NCBI RefSeq assembly: GCF_947387515.1 | Contig: NZ_CANDOB010000003.1 | Span: 1 to 64,000 of the forward strand | Source of the DNA: Alkalihalobacillus sp. CinArs1 | GTDB taxonomy: Bacteria > Bacillota > Bacilli > Bacillales > Guptibacillaceae | Direction of reading: 5' to 3' | Length of the DNA stretch: 64,000 nt | Shown here: in pieces, positions 16,845 to 30,457 of the stretch | Numbering within the stretch: position 1 is the stretch's first letter | Layout: each line of letters opens with the position of its first letter | Program-made: the position numbers and the translations under genes | Notes under the pieces: model-generated | What the model saw: only the letters and a program-made list of their open reading frames with translations | Databases searched by the model: none | What the model was told of the DNA's origin: nothing

Positions 16845-16898
16845 TTGAACAAATCTTCATGTAACTGTATAATGTTTGTATAACAATTGTACGACTTT
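16845..16898 (+). promoter_or_regulatory. crt promoter with three 11-bp-period TGTATA-type repeats
   Basis: Sigma-A promoter TTGAAC (16845-16850), 17-base spacer, TATAAT (16868-16873). Direct repeats TGTATA, TGTATA and TGTACG start at 16866, 16877 and 16888, exactly 11 bases apart. The first overlaps the -10 and the others cover the start site. Direct repeats of this kind with 11-bp spacing are what tetrameric CarH/LitR (B12-dependent, light-sensitive MerR-family) repressors bind at carotenoid promoters. No such regulator gene lies in the window. Confidence 0.7.
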
Positions 16899-16927: not shown

Positions 16928-18433
16928 ATGAGTAAAAACAAAAGAGTCATTGTAATAGGTGCTGGGCCAGGCGGACTGACTGCAGCTATGTTATTAGCCA
17001 GTAAAGGATATGCAGTGACGATATATGAGAAACAATCATTTGTAGGAGGACGTACATCCTCGTTCGAGCGTCAGGGTTACGTATTCGATAGGGGTCCAAC
17101 CTTTCTTAATATGCCGCATATACTAGAAGAAGTTTTTGAGCAATCAGGTCGTAATGTTCATGACTATATAGATTTAGTTGAAGTAGATCCTATGTATGAG
17201 TTGAAATTTGGTCATATGTCATTTTTCCCAACACGTAAGAGAGAAGAAATGGTCGAACAAATTGAAAACTTATTCCCTGGTAACGGTGAAGGGTATAGAA
17301 GGTTTATGAAAGAAGAAAAAGAGAAGTTCGAGGCTCTTATGCCAATTTTACAAAACAAGCACGATTCGTTATTTGATTATGGAAGGTGGCGGTTTTTAAA
17401 AGCGTTACCTAAGCTTACCGTAACGGATAGCGTTTATGAACGCCTGTCCACATATTTTGATGATGAGCGTCTTCGCCTCTCGTTTACGTTCCAAGCGAAA
17501 TATCTTGGTATGTCACCATGGGAGTGCCCTGGAGCGTTTACCATTTTATCGTATATGGAGCATGAATATGGTATTTTCCACCCGATCGGAGGCGTGAACC
17601 AAATATGTAAAGCGATGGCAAGGGTCATCGAAGAAGAAGGCGGTTCCATCCATACCGGAACAGCAGTTAAAAGCATTCTTATCGATGGATCAAGTGTACA
17701 AGGTGTTGAACTTGCAGATGGAAGAAAGGAATATGCTGACGAGGTTATCGTTAATGCTGATTTTGCACACGCCGTAAATCACTTATTTCCAGAAGGAAAA
17801 GGAAAACGATACTCCCCTAAAAAGATGGAACGGAAGAAATATTCTTGTTCAGCATTCATGCTTTACCTAGGTGTTAACAAATCTTATGATTTATCACACC
17901 ATACAGTTGTATTTTCTGGTGATTATAAGAAAAATGTCGAGGAAATCACTAAACAAAAAATGCTTTCAGAAGATCCTTCTATTTATATTCAGAATGCTAG
18001 CGTAACGGATAAAACGTTGGCACCTGAAGGGAAATCTTCTATCTATATTCTAGCTCCAGTCCCGAACAACTTTAGTTTAATAGATTGGGAGAAACATAAA
18101 GATGATTTCAGAAGGTTAGTATTAAACCAAATAAAAGAAAAAACAGGCTTTAACGATCTTGAAGATCATATTGAGGTAGAAGAAATGTACACACCTACTG
18201 ATTGGGAGTACGACATGAACGTTTACAAAGGTGCGACGTTTAATCTTGCTCATAACCTCCCTCAGATGATGTTCTTCAGACCTCCAAACCAGTTTAAAGA
18301 ATTCGAACACTGTTGGCTTGTAGGTGGTGGAACACACCCAGGAAGTGGTCTTCCTACGATTATGGAATCGGCAAGGATCACTACGAATCTTCTACATCAA
18401 GAAAACATCCAGCAAGAAAGGAGCGGCACATGA
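16928..18433 (+). CDS. crtN: CrtN/CrtI-family carotenoid desaturase
   Basis: 501 residues, ATG after GGAAGGGGAAG. An N-terminal dinucleotide fold (IVIGAGPGGLTAAMLLASKG, then FVGGRTSSFERQGYVFDRGPT) and a C-terminal GGGTHPGSGLPTIMESA motif typify carotenoid desaturases. By position with crtM I infer a 4,4'-diapophytoene (dehydrosqualene) desaturase introducing conjugated double bonds, membrane-associated and FAD-dependent. The C-terminal motif (THPGSGLP) is of the desaturase rather than the CrtP oxidase type. Overlaps the next gene by ATGA. Which steps each paralogue catalyses cannot be read from sequence. Confidence 0.88.
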   Translation: MSKNKRVIVIGAGPGGLTAAMLLASKGYAVTIYEKQSFVGGRTSSFERQGYVFDRGPTFLNMPHILEEVFEQSGRNVHDYIDLVEVDPMYELKFGHMSFFPTRKREEMVEQIENLFPGNGEGYRRFMKEEKEKFEALMPILQNKHDSLFDYGRWRFLKALPKLTVTDSVYERLSTYFDDERLRLSFTFQAKYLGMSPWECPGAFTILSYMEHEYGIFHPIGGVNQICKAMARVIEEEGGSIHTGTAVKSILIDGSSVQGVELADGRKEYADEVIVNADFAHAVNHLFPEGKGKRYSPKKMERKKYSCSAFMLYLGVNKSYDLSHHTVVFSGDYKKNVEEITKQKMLSEDPSIYIQNASVTDKTLAPEGKSSIYILAPVPNNFSLIDWEKHKDDFRRLVLNQIKEKTGFNDLEDHIEVEEMYTPTDWEYDMNVYKGATFNLAHNLPQMMFFRPPNQFKEFEHCWLVGGGTHPGSGLPTIMESARITTNLLHQENIQQERSGT

Positions 18434-19866
18434 ACATAGGAATTATTGGTGGCGGAATCGGTGGCATGTTGTCTGCTCTCATGCTTGCTAGAAAAGGACA
18501 CAACGTTACGATACACGAAAAAGCTAACGTTCTCGGTGGTAGACTCGCATTTGTCGAAAGGGAAGGTTTCAAGATCGACAAAGGACCAACGATCGTACTA
18601 TTGCCAGAAATGATCTATGAGTTTCTAAATAAAGCGGGAGTTGATAGAGAAGAAGTGGAAATGATCCGCTGCGATCCACTTTATCGAATGATATACCCTG
18701 ATGGTTCTTCATTCACCAAAACGAGTGATATTCAAAATCAGGTAGAAGAAATTAGGTCGATGTTTCCTGGAGAGGAAGAAGGGTTTTTACGCTACCTAGA
18801 TGATATGAGAGTAAGATTTAATAAAGGAAAAAAAGCTTTTCTAGAAAAGTCTTTTATTCATAAGAGAGAATTTTTTACTTTTAAAAATATGAAGCTCCTC
18901 TTAGAACTAAAAGCTCATCAAAACGTTCGCTCACAAGCTTCCCAATATTTCAAAGACGAGCGTTTACAGGATGCATTCTCACTACAAACGCTATACATCG
19001 GTGGCGATCCATCTGGATCTCCAGCGCTCTATTCACTAGTACCTTTTAGTGAGTACGAGCATGGTATCTGGTATATCAAAGGCGGGTATGCCAGCCTCAT
19101 ATCCCTATTAGAAAAACATATTCAAAAAGAAGGGATTACCGTTAACTTTGGCTCTGCAGTTGAAGAGTTTATAATAAATCAGAACGATTGTAAAGGATTC
19201 CGAGCCTTAGATGGTGAATTTTATTATGATAAGGTAGTTTTTAACGGTGATTTTCCAATGATTCATAATTTGATTAAAGCTGAGAAGCCACCGAAGAAAA
19301 AGTATACACCATCATCAGGTTGCTTGCTCCTTTATCTTGGACTCGACCGAATTTATGAAGAAGTCGATGTCCATCAATTTTTCATGACGGATGAGTTTAA
19401 AGCTCATATGAAAGACGTCTTCAAAAACCGATCGATTTCAAAGGATCCAGCGATCTACACGTTCCACCCTTCAAAAATAGACCATTCTCTTGCCCCTCCA
19501 GGTAAAGGTGTCCTCTATGCACTAATCCCGGTGCCTTCAGGTACTGCTACTAACTGGGAAGAAAAAGATTCATTAGCAAATGAAATCATCGGAGTACTAG
19601 AAGAAAGAGGCTTCCCACATTTGAAGGAAGCAATCGAATGGATGGAAATTCGGACCCCACTTGATGCAGAAGTGGAAGGATTATTTGAAGGGGGCAGTTT
19701 TGGAATAGCACCAACGTTAACACAGTCTGGTGCATTTCGTCCTCAGGTTAAACCATTAAATTACAAAAACCTATATGCTGTAGGAGCATCTGTACACCCA
19801 GGCGGTGGAATACCTATCGTGATGCAAGGTGCCGATCTCTTAGTAAAAGAAATAGAAAGGGTGTGA
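18430..19866 (+). CDS. second CrtN/CrtI-family desaturase
   Basis: 478 residues from the ATG at 18430 (GGAGCGGCAC upstream, ATGA overlap with the previous gene); the ORF upstream of this is a shadow. Same architecture: IGIIGGGIGGMLSALMLARK, VLGGRLAFVEREGFKIDKGPT and a C-terminal ASVHPGGGIPIVMQGA. It is clearly a paralogue of the first desaturase but divergent. The pair may act as two desaturases, or the second could add the 3,4 double bond in a CrtD-like step. That division is inference. Confidence 0.86.
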   Translation: MNIGIIGGGIGGMLSALMLARKGHNVTIHEKANVLGGRLAFVEREGFKIDKGPTIVLLPEMIYEFLNKAGVDREEVEMIRCDPLYRMIYPDGSSFTKTSDIQNQVEEIRSMFPGEEEGFLRYLDDMRVRFNKGKKAFLEKSFIHKREFFTFKNMKLLLELKAHQNVRSQASQYFKDERLQDAFSLQTLYIGGDPSGSPALYSLVPFSEYEHGIWYIKGGYASLISLLEKHIQKEGITVNFGSAVEEFIINQNDCKGFRALDGEFYYDKVVFNGDFPMIHNLIKAEKPPKKKYTPSSGCLLLYLGLDRIYEEVDVHQFFMTDEFKAHMKDVFKNRSISKDPAIYTFHPSKIDHSLAPPGKGVLYALIPVPSGTATNWEEKDSLANEIIGVLEERGFPHLKEAIEWMEIRTPLDAEVEGLFEGGSFGIAPTLTQSGAFRPQVKPLNYKNLYAVGASVHPGGGIPIVMQGADLLVKEIERV

Positions 19867-20709
19867 GTGAAAATGCTGGAGCAATCGTATAAACATTGTG
19901 AATCGATTATAAAACATCATTCAAAAACATTTTATAAAGCTTTTTCCTTGTTACCCTCAAACAAAAAGAAAGCAGTCTGGGCCGTTTATAGTTTTTGTAG
20001 GAGAGTCGATGATATTGTAGATGAAGGCACTGATCCAGAGAGAGAATTGACTGAGTTCAGATCTCAATTCGCTCGGTTTTTGAACGGTGAGAGATTGGTG
20101 AATGACCCTATGTGGATTGCTCTCCACGATGTTTTTCAGAAATTTAAGATGGACCATCAACCTTTTCAAGATATGATTGTAGGACAGGAGATGGATCTCT
20201 ATAAATCTAGATACAAATCGTTGAGTGAACTTGAACATTATTCGTATCACGTTGCCAGTACCGTTGGATTGATGCTTCTACCGATTTTAGCACCGAAAAA
20301 GGTTGAGTCACTTTCAGATGGCGCGGTTTCTTTAGGCATCGGGATGCAGATTACAAATATATTAAGAGACATTTCTGAAGATCTTGATCGAGATCGTATT
20401 TATATTCCGACTGATGAAATGAACGCTAGCGGTGTATCATCGGCAGATCTTTTTAATCGAAAGGTAACGCCAGAATTCATTGAATTGTGGGAGAAGCTAG
20501 CTGCTCGAGCGGAATATCACTATGAGAATGCTTTTGCTACGATCGACCTTTACCCTCTCGACGCCCGTCTCCCAGTTAAAAGTTCAGCACTTTTCTACCG
20601 AGCGATTCTGAAATCGATTCGAAAAAAAGAGTACAATGTATTTGATCAGCGCGCATATGTGACAGATGACGAAAAAGAAGAACTATTATCTGCAATAAGT
20701 GGAAGTTAG
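19867..20709 (+). CDS. crtM: squalene/phytoene synthase family, probable C30 synthase CrtM
   Basis: 280 residues; GTG at 19867 directly after the previous stop, or ATG at 19873. The two Asp-rich substrate motifs are present: RRVDDIVDE (about 46-54) and RDISEDLDRDRIYIP. The conserved YCxxVAxxVGL-type segment appears as YSYHVASTVGLMLLP, without the usual Cys. It condenses two prenyl diphosphates. In Bacillaceae clusters with CrtN-type desaturases this is normally two farnesyl diphosphates giving dehydrosqualene (C30). C30 rather than C40 is inferred from context. A terminator follows. Confidence 0.9.
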   Translation: MKMLEQSYKHCESIIKHHSKTFYKAFSLLPSNKKKAVWAVYSFCRRVDDIVDEGTDPERELTEFRSQFARFLNGERLVNDPMWIALHDVFQKFKMDHQPFQDMIVGQEMDLYKSRYKSLSELEHYSYHVASTVGLMLLPILAPKKVESLSDGAVSLGIGMQITNILRDISEDLDRDRIYIPTDEMNASGVSSADLFNRKVTPEFIELWEKLAARAEYHYENAFATIDLYPLDARLPVKSSALFYRAILKSIRKKEYNVFDQRAYVTDDEKEELLSAISGS

Positions 20710-20716
20710 ATGGTAG

Positions 20717-20746
20717 AACCCTCACTGAAGACGTGAGGGTTTTTTT
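20717..20746 (+). terminator. terminator after crtM
   Basis: AACCCTCA/TGAGGGTT stem, loop CTGAAGACG, then T6-7. Confidence 0.92.
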
Positions 20747-24772: not shown

Positions 24773-24811
24773 AAAAAAGCATGGAAGCGTCGGCGCCTCC
24801 ATGCTTTTTTA
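24773..24811. terminator. bidirectional terminator zinc-ribbon gene / crt oxidase
   Basis: AAAAAGCATGGA-GCG / CGC-TCCATGCTTTTT with loop TCGG and one mismatched base per arm. A/T runs on both sides serve both convergent genes. Confidence 0.92.
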
Positions 24812-26299
24812 GTTGTAAGACACTCTAGAGTCTTTTTTTGCGTGTTTCGATATGATATGATTCGCAACATTATTTCCGCTGATGACCACCATAGGTGATC
24901 CACCACCAGGATGAGTGCTTCCACCTGCGAAGTAGACGTTCTTTATGTCTTTTGAACGGTTTGAAGGACGTAAAAAGCTATTTCGGAGAGTGTTGGAGGA
25001 TATACCATATAAAGCTCCTCGATAAGCATTAAAGCGGTCCTTGATTTGAGATGGACCGATAACTTTCTCAACTACTTTTAGTTTTCGAATAGGAAGCCCA
25101 TGTTTTTCAAGTTTGTCATAGATCCGTTCTTTGTACGCTTCTTCAGGCATCTCATGATGATTAGAAAGAGGCGGTGCATTAACAAGAATGAAGAGGTTAT
25201 CACCATCAGGCGAAACATCAGGATCTGAATGAGAAGAATTTGAAATATAAACTGTAGGATCTTCAGGCCATATTCCGTTAAACAACTCTTTGAACTCTTT
25301 TTGGTAGTCTTCTGAGAAATACACTTGGTGGTGTACTAAATCAAGTCTTGAAGACAGCCCTACCATTATGACAAATGCGGAAATAGAAGGGGATAGGCTT
25401 TGAATTCTTGTGTCTCGAAATGATGGTCGCTCAGACTCTTTGACGAGAGAAGGGTAAACTTCTAATAGATCACCGTTGATGATGACTTCTTTTATCTTTT
25501 GCACCTTACCGTCAACCGTTTCGATCATTTCTGCTCGACCATTACTAACATGTACTGTCTTCACTGGGGTTTCCAAATGAATTGTAACCCCTAGTTCTGA
25601 TGCTAGTTTTTCCATCCCGCGTGCAAGTGAGGTGTTTCCACCTTTCACATAATATACGCCTTGTACCATTTCTAAATATCCAATCATCGCAAACGTTGCG
25701 GGTGATAAAAAAGGTGATGAACCTATATAGGTTGCATAGCGATTGAACGCTTTTAAGATTAGAGGGTGTTTAAAATATCGTTCATGAAAATGATTCATTT
25801 TCTCTAAAGGTCTTACCTTTAGCATGGATTGAAAAAGGGAAGGGGACAAGTAGTCCTTCCATGAAAGAAACATCCTCGGGAAAAATGACGATTTTGATAG
25901 TCGGTATAATCGATCGACTTCCTCAAGATATGTTTGATAGTTTTTAGCTGCATATGAATCTAGCTTTTCAAACTGGTCGACCATATCTTGTGGATCTGTA
26001 CTCATCATGAATGAACTGCCATCATGATCAATGTTTCTAGTGTGCCGTTCAATTTTTATCCAATCAAAGTAATTCCTTGGGTCAACACCGGCTTCTTCAA
26101 ATACGGAATCAAAGACTTCAGGCATCGTCATCGTATTTGGACCGAAATCAAAATGGTATGTTCCTAACGATACCGGCATCATCTTGCCGCCAGCGTATCC
26201 GTTTTTTTCATACACATCGACTTTGTATCCTTCACTTGCTAATTTAATCGATGCAGCAAGTCCTGCGAGTCCTGCACCTACGATTGCAATTTGTTTCAT
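24809..26299 (-). CDS. CrtP/CrtN-family C30 carotenoid oxidase or desaturase
   Basis: 496 residues from the ATG at 26299, which overlaps the glycosyltransferase stop (ATGA). N-terminal FAD fold (IAIVGAGLAGLAASIKLASEG, YAGGKMM) and a C-terminal GGSTHPGGGSPMVVISG motif. GGSTHPGGGxPMV is closer to CrtP/CrtNb-type diapocarotenoid oxidases than to plain desaturases, so terminal methyl oxidation is a reasonable guess. Last gene of a four-gene minus-strand carotenoid operon. Confidence 0.82.
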   Translation of the reverse strand: MKQIAIVGAGLAGLAASIKLASEGYKVDVYEKNGYAGGKMMPVSLGTYHFDFGPNTMTMPEVFDSVFEEAGVDPRNYFDWIKIERHTRNIDHDGSSFMMSTDPQDMVDQFEKLDSYAAKNYQTYLEEVDRLYRLSKSSFFPRMFLSWKDYLSPSLFQSMLKVRPLEKMNHFHERYFKHPLILKAFNRYATYIGSSPFLSPATFAMIGYLEMVQGVYYVKGGNTSLARGMEKLASELGVTIHLETPVKTVHVSNGRAEMIETVDGKVQKIKEVIINGDLLEVYPSLVKESERPSFRDTRIQSLSPSISAFVIMVGLSSRLDLVHHQVYFSEDYQKEFKELFNGIWPEDPTVYISNSSHSDPDVSPDGDNLFILVNAPPLSNHHEMPEEAYKERIYDKLEKHGLPIRKLKVVEKVIGPSQIKDRFNAYRGALYGISSNTLRNSFLRPSNRSKDIKNVYFAGGSTHPGGGSPMVVISGNNVANHIISKHAKKDSRVSYN

Positions 26300-27417
26300 G
26301 AGTAGGTTCTTCCTTTCCAAACATATCCTTTTTGTTTTATCCCTTTCATCATCGAATTGATCAGAAGACACATAAATGCTAGTGAACTAATCGGCATCAT
26401 GAATGAGAGTAGAATGGACTGATTGGTTTTCCAATCGACCCAGGCTTTTTGGAGCGTGATCAATATGTAAGGAATGAAAAGAGAGTACATTGGCTCACCT
26501 ATCGTATAGCTTACAACCCCTATGATCAGCAGTACGGCAGGCAAGAAGTAAAAACAGCCGTAAAAGAGAAATAGAATACTAACGAGCAAACGAGACCGAC
26601 CGAGTCCTGGAAACAAGTTTTTTGTAAACCCTTCCCACACATCTTTGTTAGAACGATACATATAGCATGTTGTAAATTTGGTAACATTCGCTAAAATCGA
26701 GCGATATCCATTTACCTTAAATGTACGTGAAAGGTGAACGTCGTCGATTAAACTGTTTTGGATGGAGCGATGTCCACCGACACGCTTGTAAGCCTTGTGA
26801 TCGACTAAGATAAATGCCCCATGAGCAGCAGTGAAAGCTGGTCTTGTTGTATGGTTTGCTGGTAAAAGGGGCAGATGGAAGTTAACGACGAAATGCTGAA
26901 GGGGTACGAGTAATTTCTCTAATAATAATGATACTGGAAATGCGGGAAATCCAGATAGCATAGATGCCTTCGTTCTCCTAAGCATTTCGAGCGATGCTTG
27001 AATCGTGTCCTTATGTAGACGCATATCAGCATCGATAAAAAGTAGATAGCTTCCTTTAGCTCGTTCACTTAGTTGGTGACATGCAAACACTTTACCATTC
27101 CAGGAAGGAGGAAGTTCTTCACCCTCAAGTATCGTGAACCGATCATCACGTTTTGTATGTTTTGTGAGTAGAGGTAATGTATGATCCTCAGAGTTATCAT
27201 TTAATACTAGTACTTCAATGTTGGGATAAGAAAGTGCTTTTAAATTCGTGATAAGATCGACTACATTTTCTTCTTCATTACGAAGAGGGATAAGGACGGA
27301 AACGAGTTCCTCCTTACCCCTGGTTGCTTTTTCGTTACGCAGACTTGGCATGAACAGCGAATTTATGATAGTCCATAGAAGGAAGCTCGCTAGTATGAGA
27401 ATATAACTAATCACCAT
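26296..27417 (-). CDS. GT2 glycosyltransferase, CruG/CrtQ-like
   Basis: 373 residues. N-terminal membrane segment (VISYILILASFLLWTII), a GT-A domain with VLIPLRNEEENV, the metal-binding FIDADMRL (DxD) and an acceptor-side SLIDDVHLSR motif, then three or more C-terminal membrane segments. Its adjacency to the CruF-like gene (start and stop share one base, TAATG) mirrors the cyanobacterial CruF/CruG pair, in which the hydroxyl added by CruF is glycosylated. It is therefore a probable carotenoid glycosyltransferase at the membrane. The sugar is unknown. Confidence 0.85.
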   Translation of the reverse strand: MVISYILILASFLLWTIINSLFMPSLRNEKATRGKEELVSVLIPLRNEEENVVDLITNLKALSYPNIEVLVLNDNSEDHTLPLLTKHTKRDDRFTILEGEELPPSWNGKVFACHQLSERAKGSYLLFIDADMRLHKDTIQASLEMLRRTKASMLSGFPAFPVSLLLEKLLVPLQHFVVNFHLPLLPANHTTRPAFTAAHGAFILVDHKAYKRVGGHRSIQNSLIDDVHLSRTFKVNGYRSILANVTKFTTCYMYRSNKDVWEGFTKNLFPGLGRSRLLVSILFLFYGCFYFLPAVLLIIGVVSYTIGEPMYSLFIPYILITLQKAWVDWKTNQSILLSFMMPISSLAFMCLLINSMMKGIKQKGYVWKGRTYS

Positions 27418-28229
27418 TAGACGATCACCTTTTCAGAAGAAGACAGCTCAAAGTTTTTTATACTTTTTCGATATGCATACAAGAAAGCATAAGTAGGTAT
27501 ACCAGTAATCGTTACAGCAAACCAGAGCTGATCTAGAATGCCTAAGAAAATAAAAAAGCCCATCACCATTCCAAATAGGGCGACCATACGATGCTTCCAA
27601 AATAAGAAACGTTCTTGAGATTGTGGAGAAATCCTGATATAAACGGGATATAGCAGGACATGAAAGAAGAAAGAAACAAAAAACCATCCCGAAAAATTTT
27701 GTAACGGAACTTGATAATAAAAACTGTCTCCTTCCCAACCCCAGTAACCCTTCACAAGGTATGCAACAGGATCGATTATCAAATCGATCAGAACTGCAAT
27801 AAGTGCTCCTATTAGGGAATATGCAAACCATTTTAGTAGTGAGTCATTCATTTTCTTCAAAAACTGAGCAGAAAGAACATGGGTAACAGCTACGACCATC
27901 ACCCATGCAAATCCAATTCCGATCGGAACCTCAGCGATTTTATAGCCAAAGTCTCCTGAATAGTTGTATTGACCAAAGATCCATCCGTAATGAACACCAA
28001 GTGATTCCGCTGCCATGCTCATGATAAATATGAAGATGCTGATCGACGTTCCTAGAGTCTTACCGAACGTTCGAATAAAATAAAATGTAGCTAACACGCC
28101 ACAAAGAATGAGGAAGAAAGCATTTGCCCATTCAAGAAATGGAGGTAGGATGTCGAATCCAACGAGGATGATTCCACATCCATACCAAAATAGAAATAAA
28201 TTAAAGACGATTTTATCTAGTTTGAGCAT
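27417..28229 (-). CDS. CruF-like carotenoid biosynthesis membrane protein
   Basis: 270 residues with about seven to eight membrane segments and conserved polar patches: AAESLGVHYGWIFGQYNYSG and LIIDPVAYLVKGYWGWEG. These are hallmarks of the CruF/carotenoid synthesis family, whose characterised members hydrate the 1,2 double bond of acyclic carotenoid ends. I infer addition of a tertiary hydroxyl for the next gene to glycosylate. Good ribosome site GAAGGGAT. Third-party work on pigmented Bacillus describes 1-hydroxylated, glycosylated C30 pigments, consistent with this content. Confidence 0.8.
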   Translation of the reverse strand: MLKLDKIVFNLFLFWYGCGIILVGFDILPPFLEWANAFFLILCGVLATFYFIRTFGKTLGTSISIFIFIMSMAAESLGVHYGWIFGQYNYSGDFGYKIAEVPIGIGFAWVMVVAVTHVLSAQFLKKMNDSLLKWFAYSLIGALIAVLIDLIIDPVAYLVKGYWGWEGDSFYYQVPLQNFSGWFFVSFFFHVLLYPVYIRISPQSQERFLFWKHRMVALFGMVMGFFIFLGILDQLWFAVTITGIPTYAFLYAYRKSIKNFELSSSEKVIV

Positions 28230-28246: not shown

Positions 28247-29752
28247 TTAGCCAGTTTGTTCTTCAGATAGTTTAAGGTCTTCAGCGATTAAATCAGCTGT
28301 TAGCTGACCTGATAATGTTACCATCGGTACGCCTCCACCAGGGTGAGTCGATCCACCGACAAAGTAGAGGTTCTCTACAAGGGAGCTTCTAGAAGGAATC
28401 TTGAAGCCGCCGTTGACTTTGCGATCAGTAGCAACCCCGTAGATCGAACCACCGTTTGAACCATATAATTCACGGATGTCATCAGGAATAAATTGATATT
28501 CAAATACGATCGATTCCCTGAGACCTTCCATTCCCATACGTTCTAGTTTGTCGAGAACAGTTTCTCGGTATCTCCCTCGGTATTCTTCGAAACTCTCTCC
28601 GGCTTGAAGTGGAGGAACATGAGTCAACACGAAAAGATTTTCTTTGCCTTCAGGTGCTTGCGAAGGATCCGATTTAGAAGAAATACCAATGTATACTGTT
28701 GGATCATCAGCCGGAACACCCTCGTCGAAAATTTGCTGAAACTCACGCTTAGGATCTTCTGAGAAGAAGAAGTTATGGTGTTGAAGCTGATCGAACGTCT
28801 TATTGACACCAAGTAGTAGGACGAGACCTGATACAGTAGGAGTGTACTTCTTCAGTTCTTGCTTCACTTTGTCAGCACCAGGTTCTTGCTTCAATAAAGT
28901 ATCGTGAGCTGGAATGCCCTCAAGGTTACTAACGATCAAATCTGCTTCCATCACATGACCACTAGATAATCTCACGCCAACCGCTTTCTTATCCTTTGTC
29001 ATGATTTGAGTAACTTCTGTGTTCACTTCAACATCAACATCTAACTCTTCTAGGAGTTTCAACATCCCTTTGGCAATGTTATACATGCCACCCTCGACGT
29101 AATAGATTCCGAGCCCAAGTTGCACATAGACTAGCTGTGATAAAATTGCAGGAGAATGGTATGGAGATGACCCGATGTACATGACAAAGAAGTTGAACAG
29201 TTGACGAAGATGCTTGTCTTTTAAATACTTTTCTGTTGCCTGATTCATCGATTTCATTGGATCCATCGCGAGCAAGTCCTTAAACGAGTGAAGCTTTTGC
29301 ATATCTTGTATTCCAGAAAGGCTCTTGCTATAAAAGCTTTTTAAGCTCAGGTCAAACATTGATTTGCAATAATCTAAATAAGAAAGGAAGTTGGAATAAT
29401 CTTTCTCTGATTGTTTATGTACCTCTGAAAGCATAACTGCTAAATCACTCGTTACATCGATCTCAGCACCATCTTCAAAAAACGTTCTCCACTGAGGCTC
29501 AATACGTGTAATCTTCATATAATCACTTACATTTCGATCAGCACTTTTAAACAGTCTTTCTAAAACCCATGGCATCGTGAGAATGGAAGGTCCTGTATCG
29601 AAGGAAAAGCCTTTTCCAGAACGTTTGTTAAGTTTCCCGCCTGGTCGTTCATTTTTTTCGAGTACCGTTACATCATGACCATCTGCGGCTAAGCGAATGG
29701 CTGCAGATAATCCACCTAGTCCTGCACCGATTACAATTGCTTTTTTTCCCAT
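28247..29752 (-). CDS. CrtP/CrtN-family C30 carotenoid oxidase
   Basis: 501 residues, ATG at 29752 after GAGGAGGAG. N-terminal AIVIGAGLGGLSAAIRLAADG and RPGGKLNKRSGKGFSFDTGPS, C-terminal GGSTHPGGGVPMVTLSGQ. The C-terminal motif is of the CrtP/CrtNb kind. First gene of the minus-strand operon with the CruF-like, glycosyltransferase and second oxidase genes. A role in oxidising a diapocarotenoid end toward aldehyde or acid is inferred, but desaturase activity cannot be excluded. Confidence 0.85.
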   Translation of the reverse strand: MGKKAIVIGAGLGGLSAAIRLAADGHDVTVLEKNERPGGKLNKRSGKGFSFDTGPSILTMPWVLERLFKSADRNVSDYMKITRIEPQWRTFFEDGAEIDVTSDLAVMLSEVHKQSEKDYSNFLSYLDYCKSMFDLSLKSFYSKSLSGIQDMQKLHSFKDLLAMDPMKSMNQATEKYLKDKHLRQLFNFFVMYIGSSPYHSPAILSQLVYVQLGLGIYYVEGGMYNIAKGMLKLLEELDVDVEVNTEVTQIMTKDKKAVGVRLSSGHVMEADLIVSNLEGIPAHDTLLKQEPGADKVKQELKKYTPTVSGLVLLLGVNKTFDQLQHHNFFFSEDPKREFQQIFDEGVPADDPTVYIGISSKSDPSQAPEGKENLFVLTHVPPLQAGESFEEYRGRYRETVLDKLERMGMEGLRESIVFEYQFIPDDIRELYGSNGGSIYGVATDRKVNGGFKIPSRSSLVENLYFVGGSTHPGGGVPMVTLSGQLTADLIAEDLKLSEEQTG

Positions 29753-29809: not shown

Positions 29810-29837
29810 TGTATAGTGTAAGTATAACCTTTGTGAA
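29810..29837 (+). promoter_or_regulatory. 11-bp-period repeats in the divergent crt intergenic region
   Basis: TGTATA, AGTATA and TGTGAA start at 29810, 29821 and 29832, again exactly 11 bases apart, between the divergent carotenoid units. The middle repeat is TATACT on the minus strand, a good -10 for the minus-strand operon, though its -35 is poor. Weaker than the set at 16866 but in the same spacing, so a shared CarH/LitR-type regulator is plausible. Confidence 0.5.
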
Positions 29838-29938
29838 AGTAAGATGACAGTCTTGGTGTGTTCTCTGCTCTAAAACGTATGACTGAACTATTACCTTAAA
29901 TGAAAGACTGTAAACAAATAATGAAAGTTGGGTAGCCC

Positions 29939-30457
29939 ATGCAAGTATTTCATCTATCGATTGCCGGTTTGATCGTAACTAACGTTTTTGCGTGGCTTGC
30001 CATACATGTTTGTATCTCTTATTTCTGTTTGAGAGTCCCTGATTCCTTCTATGAGTCCTTCATAGTAAGGAATCGTATAAAAAGCTTTGAAGCTAGTTTA
30101 TATGAAAGTTTGAAAATCAAGTATTGGAAAACGATTTTACCGGATGGTGGCGGCGTTTTTAGAGGGGGTTTTAGAAAAAAAGAACTTAAAGCGCTTACGG
30201 TTGCGTACGTTAGCAAGTTCATTGTTGAAACGAAACGAGCGGAAATCAATCACTGGATTCTAATACCGCCTTCACTATTATTTTTCTTCTGGAACCCGCC
30301 TCTAGTAGGTTGGATTATGGTCGGGTATGCACTCGTTGTAAATATCCCTTTCATCATGATTCAACGGTACAATCGGAACAGACTTGAACTACTTTTACCT
30401 AAATTAAAGAAAAAAGAACAACGTAGGAGGTCTACCGTTGAAACCTATGGAACATGA
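29939..30457 (+). CDS. crtO: CrtO-type glycosyl-carotenoid acyltransferase
   Basis: 172 residues with an N-terminal membrane segment and a second hydrophobic region near 100-130. VETKRAEINHWI and VNIPFIMIQRYNRNRL closely parallel the conserved blocks of staphylococcal CrtO, which esterifies the sugar of glycosyl-diaponeurosporenoate in staphyloxanthin synthesis. Predicted to attach a fatty acyl chain to the glycosylated carotenoid. The ribosome site is weak. It overlaps the IPP isomerase gene by 20 bases. This gene is strong evidence that the pigment is both glycosylated and acylated. Confidence 0.88.
   Translation: MQVFHLSIAGLIVTNVFAWLAIHVCISYFCLRVPDSFYESFIVRNRIKSFEASLYESLKIKYWKTILPDGGGVFRGGFRKKELKALTVAYVSKFIVETKRAEINHWILIPPSLLFFFWNPPLVGWIMVGYALVVNIPFIMIQRYNRNRLELLLPKLKKKEQRRRSTVETYGT

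Follow-up and report, generated by a model that had tools for sequence, protein, structure and literature searches.

Tandem 11-bp repeats at two carotenoid promoters of Alkalihalobacillus sp. CinArs1 as likely operators of a CarH/LitR-type photoreceptor, with mgsR as a probable further target

The control of carotenoid (crt) genes by CarH/LitR is an already known system. According to the excerpts of PMC9304148, the CarH repeat is an 11-bp unit, nnnnTnnACAn, which overlaps the -35 or the -10 element and is present in three copies in Thermus and in four in Bacillus megaterium. The motifs Wx9EH and ExHx2Gx41SxV/Tx22-27GG are said to define the homologues of CarH (excerpts of PMC8156234). Here, we analyzed a stretch of 64,000 nucleotides from the genome of Alkalihalobacillus sp. 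CinArs1 (henceforth designated as the window) together with the rest of this genome, the other members of the genus, and further genomes of the order.

The first of the two crt operons in the window and the elements preceding it are as follows.

16845..16873, plus strand: sigma-A-type promoter P1, TTGAAC (16845-16850), a 17-bp spacer, and TATAAT (16868-16873)
16866..16893, plus strand: putative operator O1, three units spaced by 11 bp that span the -10 box of P1 and its start region
16928..18433, plus strand: phytoene-desaturase-family gene (TIGR02734), first gene of crt operon 1
18430..19866, plus strand: second phytoene-desaturase-family gene of operon 1, with its ATG at 18430
19867..20709, plus strand: phytoene/squalene-synthase-family gene with a GTG start, last crt gene of operon 1
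20715..20743, plus strand: terminator-like hairpin after operon 1

The units of O1 are TGTATA (16866-16871), TGTATA (16877-16882), and TGTACG (16888-16893), the letters and the exact 11-base period being just as an earlier, sequence-only reading of this DNA had described them. That reading had also placed the repeats on a consensus sigma-A promoter, which is correct for the -10 box of P1 (six of six positions) but not for the -35 box, which is merely fair (only four of six). The first two units of O1 fit TGTnnA in full and the third (TGTACG) only in part, and O1 lies about 35 bases before the ATG (16928) of the phytoene-desaturase-family gene. As the published nnnnTnnACAn is the reverse complement of nTGTnnAnnnn, O1 contains the same repeat on the other strand, and the assignment of these direct repeats to the CarH/LitR type thus agrees with what the excerpts of PMC9304148 describe.

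The alignment of 13 related crt clusters gave 23 invariant columns out of 28 in O1, as opposed to 12 out of 82 in its flanks (9/40 upstream and 3/42 downstream). TGTATAATGTTTGTATAA followed by TGTNCGA was kept in all of the 13 crt promoters of the genus. In none of the 13 does the third unit, which is TGTACG in this genome and TGTGCG in 12 relatives, have the final fixed base of a complete TGTnnA unit. In 12 further genomes of the genus, this operator likewise precedes an orthologue (79-90% identical) of the gene that opens operon 1. The repeats might alternatively be promoter sequence only, namely a -10 box accompanied by chance TGTA words. Unit 1 indeed includes the -10 box TATAAT, and this part would be conserved in any case. 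Moreover, TGTA-N7-TGTA-N7-TGTA matched the 4.03-Mb genome once, at O1, while the reversed control pattern matched twice. The bare triple-TGTA pattern is therefore not impossible by chance, and we regard conservation and cross-prediction as weightier than rarity. Nevertheless, units 2 and 3 are downstream of the -10 box and conserved in 13 of 13 whereas the flanks are not, and the motif recurs at O2, litR, and mgsR (see below) at differing promoter positions and in either orientation. Chance words around a -10 box are thus a scarcely credible source of the repeats.

A scan of the window for the operator with up to 3 mismatches allowed yielded 3 matches (0.64 expected), and one of them, at 29810, belongs to the second crt operon.

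24809..26299, minus strand: fourth phytoene-desaturase-family gene, operon 2
26296..27417, minus strand: glycosyltransferase family 2 gene, operon 2, HpnB/CruG-like (below cut-off)
27417..28229, minus strand: carotenoid biosynthesis protein gene (PF04240), operon 2, CruF-like (below curated cut-off)
28247..29752, minus strand: phytoene-desaturase-family gene, first gene of crt operon 2
29810..29837, plus strand (opposite to operon 2): operator O2, TGTATA, AGTATA, and TGTGAA, over the core promoter of crt operon 2
29939..30457, plus strand: glycosyl-4,4'-diaponeurosporenoate acyltransferase-like gene (PF18927), on the other side of the O2 region and transcribed divergently from operon 2

O2 is a crt operator in the window additional to the one that the sequence-only reading had pointed out. 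It is made of two full units and one partial unit, is located between crt operon 2 and the divergent acyltransferase-like gene, and is conserved in 13 of 13 genomes. Separately, a GTTTA-N15-GGTAAT-type pair, which we take to resemble a sigma-B promoter, was noticed upstream of crt operon 2 (window 29860-29925, minus strand) and is conserved in 12 relatives. The pair suggests stress control of crt operon 2 beside the light switch.

We searched the genome for the regulator with the Pfam model B12-binding_2; a control search of B. subtilis with this model gave no match. Two proteins were detected in the genome, and one of them has a MerR domain and is encoded on another contig than the crt genes.

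G000:C1, about 81.7-82.6 kb: litR, encoding a 303-aa MerR + B12-binding_2 + B12-binding protein

The sequence-only reading had expected the regulator gene outside the window, which proved right, and had named the absence of carH/litR from the genome as part of what would speak against it; the homologue was looked for and is present. The N-terminal DNA-binding domain of LitR matched PF13411 (MerR_1; 8.2e-16, residues 6-73), and the C-terminal domains matched PF02607 (B12-binding_2; 1.3e-15) and PF02310 (B12-binding; 6.8e-14). The best PDB relatives by sequence are the CarH chains 3whp and 5c8d, with E-values of 1.6e-27 and 2e-27. Both CarH motifs are found in LitR: Wx9EH as W142...E152-H153, which is invariant in the nine aligned proteins out of the 13 of the genus and in 9/9 proteins outside the genus, and the longer motif through E187, H189, G192, S234, T236, and G263-G264. 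In the SignatureFinder set, GxxW, EH, and GxxxP are present, and the position of GxxH reads DEYH (G in 7 of the 9 aligned LitR proteins of the genus). The best NCBIfam family is TransRegCarH (NF052513), but the score of 138.1 bits is below the curated cut-off of 400. Judging from its motifs and domains, LitR is predicted to be a CarH-type protein, albeit no equivalog by the NF052513 model.

The neighbours of litR are a metallophosphoesterase gene and a mecB-like gene, and the locus is distant from the crt genes. LitR was found in 13 of the 14 genomes of the genus (missing in G012), and 13 of 14 were also found to possess a close orthologue of the gene that opens crt operon 1 (missing in G006). 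G006 (L010, L077), in which no crt cluster was detected, nevertheless retains LitR and the operator of litR; this genome has a distant crtI-family gene, clustered with enoyl-CoA-hydratase-like, flavin oxidoreductase-like, and other biosynthetic genes. Three cobalamin riboswitches and two Cob_adeno_trans (adenosyltransferase) genes in the genome of CinArs1 imply that cobalamin metabolism is present. The second B12-domain protein (G000:C7, L002; 217 aa) was excluded as a DNA binder, as it possesses no MerR domain. Similar short B12-domain matches exist in most genomes of the genus, and the protein is possibly another B12-based sensor.

The promoter of litR carries, on the reverse strand and over its -35 box, two full units (CTTATACAAAGTTTACACAAAC in CinArs1), and TTATACAAAGTTTACACAAAC is invariant in the litR promoters of 13 of 13 genomes. 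A three-site pattern applied to the 14 genomes matched 46 times (13 P1, 13 P2, 13 litR, and 7 others) against 4 matches of the reversed control, with the proviso that the pattern was drawn from the P1, P2, and litR sites of this genome; these three sites account for 39 of the 46. The published rule, namely three full TGTnnA units, gave 54 matches in the 14 genomes as opposed to 8 in the control.

Some repeat matches were set aside. In nine genomes of the genus, 3 or 4 TGTnnA units spaced by 11 bp were found at a small ORF between a gerA-type operon and T-box/argS (L207-L215; about 5000-5080 in L205). The small ORF had no Pfam or NCBIfam match. The first unit of its promoter is TGTCGA, TGTCAA, or TGTTGA in 7 of 9, words that we take to be close to the Spo0A box, and we thus keep this promoter only as a candidate. 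We also discarded the triple matches of the type TGTGGATAA..., which presumably represent clusters of DnaA boxes, and a match in G002 located before a ParM-like gene.

One site was common to all 14 of 14 genomes of the genus: TGTACA-N5-TGTTTA-N5-TGTATA, located upstream of an Spx/MgsR-family gene (mgsR). These repeats overlap a possible sigma-A promoter (TGTACA-18-TATAAT) and a possible sigma-B promoter (GTTTAA-14-GGGTA), and the whole region is conserved, so that the genus by itself proves little. The overlap leaves room for a narrower reading, in which LitR controls crt and itself, and the repeats at mgsR are promoter boxes instead of LitR sites. The exclusive induction by sigma-B and the positive autoregulation of B. 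subtilis mgsR are in line with this reading (excerpts of PMC7235348).

We searched 61 genomes of the order for MgsR and examined the repeats in 18 non-genus genomes with an orthologue of at least about 50% identity; the best matches of the other 41 non-genus genomes were weaker and Spx-like. Of these 18 genomes, which belong to other families, 14 carry the repeats at mgsR: 13 have three canonical units in which the 12 fixed bases are complete, and the promoter of G066 has four units, the best three of which keep 11 of 12 fixed bases. The mgsR promoters of G053 and G056 have 12 of 12 fixed bases but untypical letters, and no repeats were seen in those of G050 and G059 among the 18. In the 13 promoters, the units are oriented oppositely to those of the genus, yet all of the 12 fixed positions are kept, and this argues against mere promoter boxes.

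The unit matrix built from these 13 non-genus promoters, which were chosen for the 12 fixed bases and left free in the other columns, gives TTGTATAACTT. Over the 64-kb window, this mgsR matrix ranked O1 first (28.9) and O2 second (15.4), followed by an unrelated locus at 5.0. The best sites in 50 mononucleotide shuffles of the window averaged 6.7 with a maximum of 15.7, and the O2 score of this genome falls within that maximum. In the reverse test, the matrix of the crt and litR sites of the genus was run on the 18 mgsR loci, and in 15 of them the mgsR site scored higher than anything in 20 shuffles, which also disfavors promoter boxes as the sole explanation. We regard the narrower reading as rather unlikely, and mgsR as a likely third class of target, judged by sequence and additional to what the sequence-only reading had covered. 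On the side of this genome (G000) and its nearest relative (G001), two-unit sites, TGTATAAGAATTGTACA (L248, position 169) and TGTACAAGGATTGTATA (L249, position 172), lie about 150 bp before a gene of the Spx family. The site at this spx paralogue is a weaker hint in the same direction as mgsR.

The mgsR matrix was also applied to 12 named non-genus litR loci (17-21 kb). The litR promoter was the top three-unit site in four (L116-L119; Bacillus sp., a Bacillaceae bacterium, and Domibacillus) and the top two-unit site in L120, while no such site was found at litR in 7 of the 12, namely Shouchella L121-L123 and L125-L127 and the Domibacillus MAG L124. These seven loci speak against a universal autoregulation of litR.

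We then compared the occurrence of LitR with the state of the repeats. LitR was sought at the syntenic recQ-ypbG-litR-mecB-gudB region in 12 of the 18 MgsR-bearing non-genus genomes, and was found in 8 of 12 (50-59% identical), or 8 of the 9 in which the locus was readable. LitR is absent from G056 at an intact ypbG-mecB junction, and the locus was not found in G018, G049, and G069 among the 12 genomes read. The states of the litR site and the mgsR site agree in 8 of the 8 LitR-bearing genomes of the order (6 with both and 2 with neither; Fisher one-sided 0.036). The six litR sites keep 7 or 8 of 8 fixed bases, being mostly non-significant against shuffles when taken singly. In G056, LitR-free at the place mentioned above, the crt + litR matrix detected no mgsR site above shuffles. 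LitR is apparently intact in G050 and G059, yet the repeats are missing at both litR and mgsR.

Among the genomes of the genus, G012 had no LitR match at 1e-25, and a DNA search with the 3.9-kb litR region, run without a positive control, found nothing in it. This genome retains the P1, P2, and mgsR operators, although the crtN DNA of G012 and G013, its neighbour, shares only 91% identity. A recent (natural) loss of the repressor, an assembly gap, and another binder are possible accounts.

The last account can be generalized: these sites may be bound by a different regulator of this order that recognizes direct repeats of 11 bp, for example one of the OmpR type or another MerR protein, with litR and crt being merely among its targets. 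Repeats spaced by 11 bp are also employed by members of the OmpR family, PhoP and WalR among them. All operators are kept in G012 despite the missing litR, and G050 and G059 possess LitR without the mgsR repeats. On the other hand, the WalR box, TGTWAH, requires A at position 5, where most of the units found here have T, C, or G. The repeat equals the CarH repeat in the excerpts of PMC9304148, and litR itself bears the repeat pair in its own promoter in this genus, G014, and six genomes of the order. The agreement of the site states in 8 of 8 genomes also disagrees with a foreign binder. Altogether, we consider control by such a regulator improbable.

Our proposal is built on what was observed directly (the sites, their conservation and shared letters, the litR gene, its signature motifs, and the sites of autoregulatory type) and, for B12 binding, AdoCbl-dependent repression in the dark, and release by light, on analogy to the studied CarH proteins. 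The O1 repeats would be the operator of LitR, a repressor of the CarH/LitR type whose gene lies on a separate contig of this genome. In the dark, LitR with adenosylcobalamin would assemble along a single face of the 11-bp tandem repeats and thereby block RNA polymerase. The parts covered would be the -10/start region at crt operon 1, the core promoter at operon 2, and, at litR itself, the -35 box. These operator positions suit a repressor. Light would split the carbon-cobalt bond of cobalamin and the LitR oligomer would drop off, whereby the pigment genes and litR could be transcribed. The same LitR would probably control mgsR as well, both in this genus and beyond it, in many further families of the order. 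What counts against LitR, besides G012, is that the third unit of O1 and one unit of O2 are partial and that litR has only two units, whereas the studied operators have three or four. Further points on this side are the O2 score within the shuffle maximum, the seven non-genus litR loci with no such site, and the Glu next to the motif Trp (see below). We regard it as very likely that the CarH/LitR photoswitch controls both crt operons, and its control of mgsR as probable. For much of the order, we lean slightly towards LitR being the light/B12 input to the Spx/MgsR regulators: mgsR would be repressed in the dark and released in the light, light would prime the thiol/oxidative stress response, and the pigment operons would have joined the regulon in this genus. 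Under the same reading, LitR perhaps also represses an spx paralogue in this species.

If this is true, the B12 light sensor, which the literature consulted reports for pigment genes, also feeds the stress regulator MgsR in a large part of this order of bacilli. Stress control would then receive light signals by two routes, this one and the blue-light path to sigma-B, and the supply of cobalamin is predicted to set stress readiness in the dark. The natural promoters and their regulator may also serve for light-switched expression in Bacillaceae. No report of CarH/LitR control of mgsR was found in the literature searched, the coverage of which did not extend to the full target list of B. megaterium CarH/LitR and thus limits the claim of novelty.

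Among the closest described systems is CarH of B. megaterium (LitR of B. megaterium QM B1551), a Gram-positive MerR-B12 photoreceptor of carotenoid genes with tandem nnnnTnnACAn repeats over -35 or -10. The excerpts of PMC9304148 give four repeats (or three and one pseudorepeat) for B. megaterium, whereas we found three at crt and mgsR and two at litR. CarH of Thermus thermophilus is similar in the domain order, Wx9EH, the B12 motif, and three tandem 11-bp repeats. One of the Thermus repeats includes the -35 box, whereas the operators described here cover the -10 box and start, the core promoter, or the -35 box depending on the gene. In illuminated Thermus CarH, the His after the motif Trp is the upper ligand, and the corresponding position of the LitR studied here is occupied by Glu. 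Finally, B. subtilis shares MgsR as a redox-sensitive regulator of the Spx type within the sigma-B response. Its mgsR is exclusively sigma-B dependent and autoregulated in the excerpts of PMC7235348, while the mgsR promoter of CinArs1 bears three CarH-type repeats.
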